Translations under genes and position numbers: made by a program
Notes under the pieces: model-generated
Seen by the model: the letters and a program-made list of their open reading frames with translations, nothing else
What the model was told of the DNA's origin: nothing
The model's database searches: none
Assembly (NCBI GenBank): GCA_927797885.1
Contig: OV696605.1
Span: forward strand, 2,641,157-2,705,156
Direction of reading: 5' to 3'
Length of the DNA: 64,000 nucleotides
Source of the DNA: Gloeomargaritales cyanobacterium VI4D9
Lineage (GTDB): Bacteria > Cyanobacteriota > Cyanobacteriia > Gloeomargaritales > Gloeomargaritaceae
Shown: positions 2,912-59,968 of the stretch, one piece after another
Position numbering within the stretch: position 1 is the stretch's first letter
Layout: the number at the start of each line of letters is the position of its first letter

Positions 2912-3268
2912 ATGCCTAGAGGGAACCCAAAACCGGTGCAGACAGATAAATTTAAGTCAACATGGTTCAAGCCCAAGGGTGCTGTATACAGTGATTATCC
3001 CTTAGCAGACAAGCCTACCCAAGTACGACTGGCAGAGGACATCACGGCGGCGGTGGATGCGTTGGGTGATAATAAGACCCCTTGGCTCCGGCGGGTAATC
3101 ACTGAAGCGGCACGGGCGGAACTGATGGGCGAATCCCCCCCCAATCCCCAGCAGGCGGAACCAGACCGGGCGGAACTGGTGGAGCTACTGGACACTGCGC
3201 TGGGGATGACCAAGGCCAAAGACATTAAACCCCTGCTAGAGAAAATGAGGGAACGGTTGACCCGGTAG
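2912..3268 (+). CDS. Ribbon-helix-helix DNA-binding protein, probable element regulator
   Basis: A 118-residue protein. Residues ~38-70 (TQVRLAEDITAAVDAL followed by TPWLRRVITEAARAEL) have the strand-helix-helix pattern of RHH repressors. A basic N-terminal arm (PRGNPKPVQTDKFKSTWFK) and a helical C-terminus flank it. RHH dimers bind direct or inverted short operators, and the upstream region carries five CTGTATAC-type sites, one of them in this gene's own coding region. It could be a plasmid copy-control or partition regulator, or the element's master repressor. No toxin partner is adjacent. Confidence 0.65.
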   Translation: MPRGNPKPVQTDKFKSTWFKPKGAVYSDYPLADKPTQVRLAEDITAAVDALGDNKTPWLRRVITEAARAELMGESPPNPQQAEPDRAELVELLDTALGMTKAKDIKPLLEKMRERLTR

Positions 3269-5060: not shown

Positions 5061-5287
5061 TTATAAATTCGAGTCAGGCAAAACACTTAATGAGAAGATT
5101 TTTCGTTATAAATGAGAATTTAGCTCCTAAATGACAATGTTTTGTATCATCAGGTTAGATGCACATTTTGGCACAAACCCTCAAAATCTTAAGATTCAAC
5201 ACTTCTGCTGTGAAGGCTTAATCAAGACAAGTCAAACAAAAATCAGAATTTGTGGCATACGCTTCATCCTACGTAGAATCGCTTAAA
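5061..5287. repeat. Gap holding an R7 repeat copy (5149-5216)
   Basis: The stretch around GATGCACATTTTGGCAC and AACCCTCAAAATCTTAA at 5149-5216 recurs in reverse orientation at 56201-56264 with a few mismatches. I see no gene here. The remainder is AT-rich junk between two insertion sequences. Confidence 0.6.
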
Positions 5288-12949: not shown

Positions 12950-13475
12950 ACTACCCCGCCGCAAGCGGACGGGGTATCAGAATCAAAAAGGAGTAAGTTG
13001 CTCATATCTGTGTAACTGGAGATATTCATTGCCTTGATTCTTGACATACCTCGCAATCATACCTTCATCTCCGTGTTTACCAACAGTACTGGCAAAATAA
13101 CCATCACTCCAAAACTCTCCCCCCCATAGCTTTTGTTTCACGTGAGGACAGCGCTTGAACACTTCTTTTGCGCTTAAACTCTTAATCATCGTCACCAACT
13201 GGTCACGCTATAGGTTGGCACAGACTGGACGAGAAAATGCACATGGTCTTTGTCCACACCAATTTCGACAAACTTAACTTCATAACGCTTTTCGATGTCC
13301 AAGCAAATCTCCCGTAGAACCTCATCTACCTGCTCATCAAATACAACCCGTCGATATTTTGCTGAAAACATTTAAGTGGTATAGCAAAGTCGTTACATTA
13401 TGGCTCTTGTGAATGTACTCGCTCATAATCTGAAATTTACACCACTCTCAAGGCCGCCGCAAGCGGCGGGGAATT
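12950..13475 (-). mobile_element. Decayed IS200/IS605-type element
   Basis: A broken Y1 transposase gene sits between two short GC hairpins: CCCCGCCGCAAGCGGACGGGG (~12954) and CCGCCGCAAGCGGCGG (~13453). Subterminal hairpins without terminal inverted repeats are the hallmark of IS200/IS605. No tnpB is present. Confidence 0.7.
12983..13426 (-). pseudogene. tnpA: IS200 tnpA (Y1 HUH transposase) with two frameshifts
   Basis: Reading across three frames gives a near-complete TnpA: MSEYIHKSHNVTTLLYHL, then FSAKYRRVVFDEQVDEVL, the HUH motif DKDHVHFLVQ, and after a second frameshift near 13197 MIKSLSAKEVFKRCPHVK and the C-terminal FWSDGYFASTVGKHG with YVKNQG carrying the catalytic Tyr. One frameshift lies near 13372 and one near 13197. 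The protein cannot be made intact, so the element is dead unless helped in trans. Confidence 0.85.
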
Positions 13476-15708: not shown

Positions 15709-16680
15709 ATGAGACGACAAATTCAGGGACTTATCAAGCCATTGCTCAACCTTCTTCCCAAAAACGACTATCCAGTCTTAGATACCCGCCTGTTTGTCCT
15801 CATCTGGATACACTTTATTTTAGATGCGAGAGTCTCCACGATGCGGGGCTTATTTTTTCTCTTAAACCATCTTAATTTCAGAGTTGATATATCTACATTT
15901 TCTAAAGCGTGTAAACATCGTAGCACTGAACCGTTTCAATTAATTTTAAGAGAACTACAAAAGCGGCTTAAAAATCATCAAGGGGAAAGATGGCTACGCC
16001 ACGCAAGCTATAAGCACTTATTTCCATTAGATTCCACTGTGATAACCCTAACTAGCAAATTGTTTTGGCAACACAAACAGGTCAAGCTAGCTCTTGGCTT
16101 TGACATAAATGAGGGTAACATCGGGGATGAATCGATTGTATTTGGAGAAACTAATGACCACAAGATTGGTCATATTATGATTGGAACGATACCCGAGAAT
16201 GCCATTGGCATCATGGATAGAGGCTTTGCATCTTGGAAATTGATGGATGAAATGTGCCAAAGAAATACATTGTCTATTGTACGGATTAAAAATAATATGA
16301 AGTTGCAACCTGATAACCCTAATATTCGGGTAGTTCAATTTTTTAGTTCAGAGGAAAATACGGAATATAGACTTGCGACAAATGTAACCTCTATGAGGGA
16401 TGAAGAGGTTTGTTTAGCCTATCGTTTGCGCTGGCGAATCGAACTGCTTTGGAAGGCGTTGAAGATGCACCTAAAATTGGATAGAATTATTACTAAAAGT
16501 GAGAACGGTGTGCGGCTACAGATTTATGCTGTATTGATTGGTTATCTGATTTTGAAATTACTAAAGATAGGTCAGAATAAGACTTATGAACTTACGGATA
16601 AGTTGCGATATTTACAGATAGAAATAGGCAGGCACTGTACCTTGATGGAACTTGTGGGTGTAGAGCCCCTGGTAGGGTAA
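15709..16680 (+). CDS. IS4-family transposase carrying an in-frame small-repeat insertion
   Basis: A 323-residue DDE transposase homologous to that of copy 1 (LLPKNDYPVLDTR, FPLDSTVITLTSKLFW, IGIMDRGFASWKLMD, AYRLRWRIELLWKALKMHL). Between ~residues 94 and 103 it has 7-8 extra residues (WLRHASYK), encoded by 15991-16014, which match the ~24-bp small dispersed repeat of this genome. The insertion keeps the frame and lies just before the first catalytic Asp. Whether the enzyme still works is unknown. I start at the ATG at 15709, which aligns with copy 1. Confidence 0.88.
   Translation: MRRQIQGLIKPLLNLLPKNDYPVLDTRLFVLIWIHFILDARVSTMRGLFFLLNHLNFRVDISTFSKACKHRSTEPFQLILRELQKRLKNHQGERWLRHASYKHLFPLDSTVITLTSKLFWQHKQVKLALGFDINEGNIGDESIVFGETNDHKIGHIMIGTIPENAIGIMDRGFASWKLMDEMCQRNTLSIVRIKNNMKLQPDNPNIRVVQFFSSEENTEYRLATNVTSMRDEEVCLAYRLRWRIELLWKALKMHLKLDRIITKSENGVRLQIYAVLIGYLILKLLKIGQNKTYELTDKLRYLQIEIGRHCTLMELVGVEPLVG
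15991..16014 (-). repeat. Small dispersed repeat (SDR-like) inserted in frame in the transposase
   Basis: GGCTACGCCACGCAAGCTAT is the reverse complement of the motif found at many intergenic sites (GCGTGGCGTAGCCATA type). Alignment with transposase copy 1 is gap-free once this segment is removed. Confidence 0.75.
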
Positions 16681-19190: not shown

Positions 19191-19215
19191 AATGGCTTCG
19201 CCACGCTTCGCTATA
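19191..19215 (-). repeat. SDR-like insertion in the IS630 gene
   Basis: AATGGCTTCGCCACGCTTCG CTATA interrupts codons of the IS630 helix-turn-helix region; deleting it joins the two halves of the motif. Confidence 0.65.
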
Positions 19216-26325: not shown

Positions 26326-26447
26326 CTAGCAATACCATTCGATTAACGAACCGAAATTTCCCAGAACCAATACGGGGCAGTACCCCTGCAACCCCTGTGC
26401 TCATAGCGATAGCGTGGCGTAGCCATACTCGTTCAGGATTGCCAAAG
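26326..26447. repeat. R1 repeat with internal SDR
   Basis: An R1 copy in reverse orientation (CAGAACCAATACGGGG core). An insertion at about 26402-26430 reads AGCGATAGCGTGGCGTAGCC ATACTC, the small dispersed repeat. Confidence 0.75.
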
Positions 26448-29571: not shown

Positions 29572-29705
29572 GGGCATCTCTATTTATTTGAGCCAACCCA
29601 TAGCCTGCGTGGCGTAGCCATAAATCTCATCGTTGGAATAATCATAATTACTTAGAACCTACTTAGAACCACGGACGGGGGCGGTGCCCTGCGACCCCTA
29701 CGTTA
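29572..29705. repeat. Composite repeat (R2 end + SDR + R1 half)
   Basis: It opens GGGCATCTCTATTTATTTGA, continues with the small dispersed repeat (TAGCCTGCGTGGCGTAGCCA at 29601-29620) and ends in an R1 half (CTTAGAACCACGGACGGGGG). The same composite occurs at 59828-59968. Confidence 0.8.
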
Positions 29706-32536: not shown

Positions 32537-32566
32537 TCTATCCTATCGCTTGCGTGGCGTCGCCAT
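32537..32566. repeat. SDR-like element upstream of purB
   Basis: TATCGCTTGCGTGGCGTCGC CATAGC, 24 bp before the purB start, where it could overlap the purB promoter or leader. Confidence 0.6.
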
Positions 32567-36291: not shown

Positions 36292-36416
36292 TATAGCTAA
36301 GCATACAAAGGTTGACATGATATGGGTCGCTGGGCGTAGCCCCACATTGGTTTCCCATAGCAAAGCGTGGCGTAGCCATGAATCTTAAGGCGACAACCTT
36401 AACCTACCTAGCTATA
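36292..36416. repeat. R4 repeat copy 2 with SDR insertion
   Basis: The TATAGCTAA ... CTAGCTATA ends and the interior (CAAAGGTTGACATGATATGG, GGCGACAACCTTAACC) match copy 1. A ~24-bp insertion at 36357-36380 reads ATAGCAAAGCGTGGCGTAGC CATG. Confidence 0.8.
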
Positions 36417-42444: not shown

Positions 42445-42811
42445 CTGTTACGTTCAATCTGCCTTTAATCAGGTTGGTAGAATTATAGCATTAAATAATT
42501 ACGTAACAAGCATTTATAGAAACTAAATTCCAGCGCACTTGTGATTACTGTTTCAATATCTAATAGGATTGATATAGAACCAAAACCGGGGGCGGTGCCC
42601 CGGCGACCCCGATTTTGATAGCGATAACGTGGTGCAGCCATACTCAGTTAAGGTTACTAGGGAGTTGCCCTACTAATCACTTGATTGGAAATTGATTGGA
42701 AATAACTGGGAATAACCGGTTGCAAAACCCCCAAGCATCTTCCCCCTCAACGTGGTAGATTACTAAAATCATATAAAATCGGACAAAATCAGTTTATGCA
42801 AGCCCTGCTCC
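42445..42811. repeat. Gap with R1 repeat (42561-42656) and internal SDR
   Basis: TAATAGGATTGATATAGAAC, then CCAAAACCGGGGGCGGTGCC, then the SDR-like GCGATAACGTGGTGCAGCCA at 42620-42639. The rest is the ffh promoter region; ATATAAAATC at 42769-42778 could be its -10. Confidence 0.6.
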
Positions 42812-44213: not shown

Positions 44214-44350
44214 TAGCAACACTAAGTGAGAATAGAATAGGGGTCGCAGGGGCACCGCCCCCGTCAAAGAAGCACCTGCGGTGTATGGTTCTGGAAAATT
44301 TTTGTATGCCTACGGCACGCAAGCTAATGTAAATCAAGTAGGATTGCTAT
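44214..44350. repeat. R1 repeat with two insertions
   Basis: The ATAGCAACACTAAGTGAGAA start, GGGGTCGCAGGGGCACCGCC core and TAGGATTGCTAT end are clear. It carries an extra AAGAAGCACCTGCGGTGT, and an SDR-like TATGCCTACGGCACGCAAGC TAATG at 44304-44328 that is absent from the copy at 48111-48208. Confidence 0.8.
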
Positions 44351-48019: not shown

Positions 48020-48110
48020 AGGGTTTACAGAGTATCACCCCGTTGTGGTTCGGATAGCCTGGGTGGTGTAGCCAGGTAATTTTGTTGTCACCTAAATCAT
48101 TTGAGATATA

Positions 48111-56274: not shown

Positions 56275-56394
56275 ATAGCAATCCTAAATGAAAATAGAAC
56301 AGGGGTCGTAGGGGCACCGCCCCCGTACTTGGTTCTGGAAAACTTTTGTATGCCTACGGCACGCAAGCTAATGTAAATCAAGTAGGATTGCCAT
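56275..56394. repeat. R1 repeat with SDR insertion
   Basis: TAGCAATCCTAAATGAAAAT to CAAGTAGGATTGCCATA. The SDR-like ATGCCTACGGCACGCAAGCT is at the same place as in the copy at 44214-44350, so both derive from one parent copy. Confidence 0.82.
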
Positions 56395-59827: not shown

Positions 59828-59968
59828 GGGCATCTCTATTTATTTGAGCCAACCTATAGCCTGCGTGGCGTAGCCATAAATCTCATCGTTAGCATACCCA
59901 TATTACCCAGAACCAAGGGCGGGGGTGCCCCTGCGACCCGTATTCCATTTTCATTTAGGATTGCTATA
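59828..59968. repeat. Composite repeat (R2 end + SDR + R1 half), copy 2
   Basis: GGGCATCTCTATTTATTTGA, then TAGCCTGCGTGGCGTAGCCA TAAATCTCATC, then the R1 half ending CATTTAGGATTGCTATA. It is nearly identical to 29572-29705. Confidence 0.8.

Follow-up and report, generated by a model that had tools for sequence, protein, structure and literature searches.

How a sequence of 21 nt, which is too short to code for any enzyme, comes to stand in frame in an intact transposase gene and at many other places in the same genome is the question raised by this locus. The source genome (G000) is one contig of 3,162,419 bp, from which the window, the whole stretch of DNA that was analyzed, takes 64,000 nt; the genomes compared with it as G001 to G006, including G003 and G004, belong to the same genus. 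The repeat is a cleanly inserted, hairpin-forming 21-base unit, the hosts of which are transposases, mini-transposons, and ordinary sequence.

Sequence, copies, and distribution of the unit

With its flanks counted in, the unit reads TAGC-YT-GCGTGSCGTAGSCAT (21 nt), and in its variants, which are 22 or 23 nt long, YT is replaced by GAA, AAA, GTA, GATA, or GTTA. The 16-mer core GCGTGGCGTAGCCATA has 11 matches in the window at up to 3 mismatches (mean 0.36 and maximum 2 in shuffles), and ten clear copies of the unit were counted there. The copies are listed below by coordinates and strand, with the corresponding empty sites (^ marks the insertion point).

15990-16010, minus: 21-nt element, in frame in the IS4 transposase gene (about 15709-16680, plus); empty in the G003 copies, net 21 bp
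19192-19213, minus: 22-nt variant TAGCGAAGCGTGGCGAAGCCAT in an IS630-type gene; every copy found is filled
26404-26426, plus: 23-nt variant TAGCGATAGCGTGGCGTAGCCAT in the right arm of mini-transposon R1; empty arms read CTCA^AC..., net 23 bp
29601-29621, plus: 21-nt element in composite repeat site B; same place filled in G003, some family copies empty
32546-32566, plus: 21-nt element immediately upstream of purB; filled in G000, G003, and G004, empty in G005 and G006
36358-36379, plus: 22-nt variant in repeat R4; exact empty form CTCCA^GAAT in L035
42619-42641, plus: decayed 23-nt copy in an R1 right arm; core with 3 mismatches
44306-44326, minus: copy with a TGCC/GGCA stem in an R1 left arm; R1 left arms without the unit give net 21 bp
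48055-48075, plus: strongly decayed copy, by sequence match
56350-56370, minus: copy with a TGCC/GGCA stem in an R1 left arm; compared with empty R1 left arms
59857-59877, plus: 21-nt element in composite repeat site B; compared with site B copies lacking the unit

Several entries differ from those of an earlier note on this DNA. The borders of the transposase element, given there as 15991-16014, are corrected to 15990-16010 (minus), and the predicted in-frame gain of 7-8 residues amounts to 7 (RWLRHAS). The list of hosts holds for R1, R4, the composites, IS630, purB, and the transposase and fails for R2, the two copies of which were not upheld as clean insertions (36472 is without the core and 39412 is degenerate). 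The R1 copy placed near 42617 is present in a decayed state (42627; core with 3 mismatches), and the decayed copy at about 48055 had been overlooked. The IS630 copy given at 19191 is a 22-nt variant for which no empty partner was seen among the copies found.

Across G000, near-matches of the core at up to 2 mismatches number 190, versus 6 for a reversed control pattern, and the exact 21-mer occurs 99 times with no strand preference (43 forward, 56 reverse). Exact copies number 91 in G004, 60 in G003, and 2 in G005, with none in G001, G002, or G006. The exact 21-mer is present in 20 of 390 cyanobacterial genomes, the control pattern in none; beyond the genus it is found almost only in family f32 (up to 27 copies), plus outliers with one copy, and the named contigs among the matches listed belong to Anabaena, Dolichospermum, Trichormus, Brasilonema, Nodularia, and their relatives. 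One-copy outliers aside, the range of the unit among the 390 genomes is this genus and the Anabaena family. An Rfam search of the window returned tRNAs only and no RNA family over the unit, the exact 21-mer was not found in the viral contigs of IMG/VR, and a literature search with the unit sequence yielded only unrelated Helicobacter papers.

Regarding its structure, the core folds as TGGC-GTA-GCCA, and in the R1 subfamily as TGCC-GTA-GGCA. Among 33 distinct cores, a sample gathered by likeness to both main forms, the middle pair is swapped in 11 and original in 15, cells changed on both sides number 12 (5.3 in shuffles), 89% of cells are paired (26-60% after sliding of the partner), and copies with a single-change intermediate number 2 versus 21 with the double change. 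Since the sample was picked by similarity and the double change is confined to one pair, mostly in one subfamily, the hairpin is supported and the case for covariation is not strong. Fold energies were not better than those of shuffles, one variant excepted.

Borders and target of the insertions

Filled and empty sites were compared in targeted stretches around copies, which makes for a partial genome-wide catalogue of sites. At 14 paired sites, 11 in this genus and 3 of Anabaena type, the net insertion is exactly 21 bp (22 or 23 bp for the variants), with borders identical to the base, and the recurrent, precise insertion of a very small repeat claimed by the earlier note was thus confirmed. 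The unfilled copies that it reported for R1, R4, and the transposase were recovered (R1 in both arms), together with those of both composite sites. Between fixed flanks, the R1 left arm measures 26 nt filled and 5 nt empty, and the right arm 26 nt with the 23-nt variant and 3 nt empty; the figures are 24 versus 3 nt at composite site B, 23 versus 2 nt at site C, and 23-24 versus 2-3 nt in R4. Empty forms that are changed nowhere else read CTCA^AC (R1 right), CTCGA^TAATATGG (site C), CTCCA^GAAT (R4), CTTGA^AATC (IS630), and CCTA^AGCC, the last of which, in G006, is the cleanest form upstream of purB. The IS630 gene of G004 has a 22-nt insertion with an empty copy at G004:2156840, at a different place in the gene from the copy at 19192 of the window.

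The IS4 transposase of the window is intact (323 residues, NCBIfam IS4_1) and reads GE-RWLRHAS-YK where the G003 copies read GE-FK. The four G000 copies examined, which form two subtypes approximately 86% alike, all carry the unit at this first site; it is missing there from the G003 copies, whose likeness to one of these subtypes is 96-97%, and from more distant transposases (G164 and others). A second insertion in the G000 copies is absent from G003. Because differences between the two subtypes lie within 6-8 bp of the unit at both of its ends, ordinary conversion would require a tract shorter than about 35 bp; the filling of both may reflect recurrent insertion, a very short conversion, or ancestral presence with loss. 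One G000 copy (L031) carries two units, at 5111 and 5335, and the transposase is expanded in G003, with more than 20 near-identical copies versus approximately four in G000.

An unannotated gene of 69 residues holds the unit in frame in G003 and is empty in G000 (L262); the reverse applies to a further site, where G000 has the unit and G003 (L267) lacks it. The strain comparison proposed earlier thus found three sites that differ between G000 and G003, the shared DNA of which is approximately 92-97% alike, and movement has therefore been fairly recent. In three host repeats of Nostocales, the empty form is A or AA and the filled form ATAGCTTGCGTGGCGTAGCCAT(A), the empty sites being TTTGA^ACAAA, TATGA^AGATG, and TTTGA^AAAAT; the R1 left arm and Nostocales site N1, which are similar places in similar mini-transposons, may represent one event.

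Some junctions carry substitutions within 3 nt. Examples are a change of AA to CT at the first of the two transposase sites and changes of A to T in the R1 left arm and at the second transposase site, those of A to T preceding units of the TGCC/GGCA type. The description of each copy as a clean insertion consequently holds for the net 21, 22, or 23 bp and is not absolute at the junctions, and the exchanged tract may be slightly longer than the unit. Nor was each copy inserted separately, since many R1 and composite copies are duplicates of the host repeat.

Immediately before the insertion, all 14 empty sites have A; position -3 is occupied by C or T in 13 of them (the filled partner of the exceptional site has C), and the first base after the insertion is A in 10 and C in none. 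Distinct filled contexts from three genomes have a pyrimidine at -3 in 64 of 64 cases, a set that includes mutated descendants of each other. The alignments of borders suggested earlier thus point to a target preference, YNA^, which describes aligned sites and not a measured specificity; a target duplication was sought at every junction and not found, and no direct repeat flanks the unit. A 2-bp TA at site C was considered as a target duplication and rejected because all other sites disagree, and HIP1 (GCGATCGC) was not seen as a target.

Several copies merit description in their own right. The copy upstream of purB, kept in three species that are 11-16% divergent nearby, has changed within the core only in the loop (GTC versus GAC) and may act as a leader hairpin. 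In R4 (36358-36379 of the window, L034 at 3673, and L043 at 3398), the flanks are nearly identical and the interior of the unit is TT, GAA, or AAA, a pattern that resembles an in-place replacement of the unit. In G004, the R1 right arm contains tandem or nested 17-nt units, TAGCGTGCCGTAGGCAT and TAGCGTGGCGTAGCCAT (L051-L070, e.g., L066 at 3139-3205).

Possible mechanism of movement

We consider it probable, at roughly two chances in three, that the repeat is a mobile, non-coding hairpin unit of 21 nt (22-23 nt in variants) that is inserted whole, 3' of YNA on the target strand and with no target-site duplication, and that later spread within host repeats. Since 21 nt cannot encode an enzyme, the inserting activity would be supplied in trans. 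The intermediate would be a short structured single strand, for which RNA is our tentative choice, with single-stranded DNA and some other form each being possible at a somewhat lower level, and most later copies would have arisen when host repeats (R1 and the composites) transposed with the unit inside.

Two resident enzymes were candidates for the mover. An RNA intermediate copied by a reverse transcriptase, which Elhai and colleagues reportedly proposed in 2008 for the small dispersed repeats (SDRs) of Nostoc, accords with the compensated and G-U changes in the stem and with the retron-type reverse transcriptases of G000 and G003, one in each; however, the search for such an enzyme recommended by the earlier note gave no RVT_1 match in G004, which has its 91 exact copies all the same, so that a resident reverse transcriptase was rejected as the mover. 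The retron locus, moreover, has no copy of the unit, and this route by reverse transcription is doubtful. The retron-type enzyme (L224 at 1270-2388, L223) has 372 residues, its best models being RT-Protease_XI and RT-TIR_XII, and no recognized effector domain; an adjoining gene of 249 residues may be part of the locus. Movement of the unit as single-stranded DNA by a Y1 transposase (HUH class, IS200/IS605 or RAYT type) is unlikely, even if such enzymes leave no target duplication, the hairpin is small, the insertion lies 3' of a short motif, and Y1 proteins, which occur in G000, G003, G004, and G005, are absent from G001, G002, and G006, the genomes without copies. The Y1 matches of G000 are fragments with no intact gene seen, which led us to reject a resident Y1 transposase, and the long copies in G003 carry a stop codon; moreover, the association is confounded because carriers generally seem richer in repeats and insertion sequences. 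Elements of the IS200/IS605 type have a subterminal hairpin at each end and a fixed target of four or five nucleotides, whereas the unit has YNA^ and a single hairpin. A broken Y1 transposase remnant (IS200-type) lies at 13034-13386 of the window. As reverse transcriptases are not general among carriers and Y1 is broken in G000, we prefer insertion in trans, the inserted material being a short, structured strand of RNA or single-stranded DNA.

A few ancient insertions dispersed by hitch-hiking in R1, composite, and transposase copies and by gene conversion would account for the location of most copies in R1, site B, site C, R4, or IS contexts and for the purB copy shared by three species, but this is quite unlikely in view of at least 13 separate target sequences with an identical unit and border, the other contexts of the unit in Nostocales, and sites outside the R repeats at which one genome carries the unit and a relative does not, which already weaken it. 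Template switching during replication, through short homology, fits the A-A junctions and the occasional substitutions nearby and is very unlikely, since random switching predicts variable lengths and borders and the unit is constant across distant genera. The least credible alternative, precise excision from sites that were once filled, would explain how the transposase site is filled in both G000 subtypes and empty in the G003 copies that closely resemble one of them; against it, the unit is absent from distant transposases and from G005 and G006 at purB, from which the empty state is ancestral at these two sites. Gain rather than precise loss has outgroup support at some sites only, namely these.

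Returning to the preferred insertion in trans, a dedicated, undescribed enzyme may insert the short structured strand 3' of YNA, as part of a system transferred between Nostocales and the lineage to which this genus belongs, an extension that we regard as doubtful. If true, the identical filling of two transposase subtypes would be recurrent insertion at one nucleotide.

Relationship to known small repeats

The closest counterparts are the SDRs; Elhai and colleagues are said to have described SDR1-SDR8 in 2008 from Nostoc punctiforme and its relatives as precisely inserted hairpins of 21-27 nt. The likeness extends to size (21-23 nt here), dispersal in many contexts with 99 exact copies in G000, precise insertion, here by filled and empty pairs at 14 sites, a hairpin with compensatory changes (here a double change in one pair, mostly in one subfamily), nested copies (the G004 arrays), a position in mini-transposons (R1), and occurrence in Nostocales. 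The unit is densest, in contrast, in a genus outside Nostocales. Nostoc SDRs are cited in PMC4390886 and PMC3116915, and the former reports SDR5 between bases 3 and 4 of HIP1, a target of GCG^ATCGC that differs from YNA^. By its features rather than by a match to the SDR1-SDR8 sequences, the repeat fits the SDR kind, in support of the earlier reading, which the defined 21-nt unit, the lack of a target duplication, and the presence in Nostocales bear out; within this kind it is a further member or a wide extension of range. The novel points are the exact unit, the target rule YNA^, and how densely the unit occurs in an unrelated genus.

REP/REPIN sequences with their RAYTs are likewise very small hairpins scattered through bacterial genomes (PMC3116915, PMC3733652), and in Anabaena variabilis REP dimers lie within a similar palindromic repeat (PMC3733652). 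The unit differs from them in having no GTAG/CGTC tag beside the palindrome and in occurring also inside coding genes, and an intact Y1 protein was not seen in G000. Rickettsia palindromic elements are similarly inserted in frame into protein genes, but at approximately 100-150 bp they are five times larger. MITEs such as Nezha of cyanobacteria are also non-coding, dispersed, and mobilized in trans, and the host repeat R1 is MITE-like; however, MITEs measure 70-300 bp and have terminal inverted repeats and target duplications, neither of which the unit has.

The movement of the smallest mobile DNA units on record has been an open question since 2008. The present genus offers a compact test bed: carrier genomes of approximately 3 Mb hold 60-99 exact copies, sister species hold no copy, the unit and a target rule are defined, and the pairs of filled and empty sites extend beyond repeats. 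Genes common to the carriers and missing from the non-carriers could indicate the enzyme.
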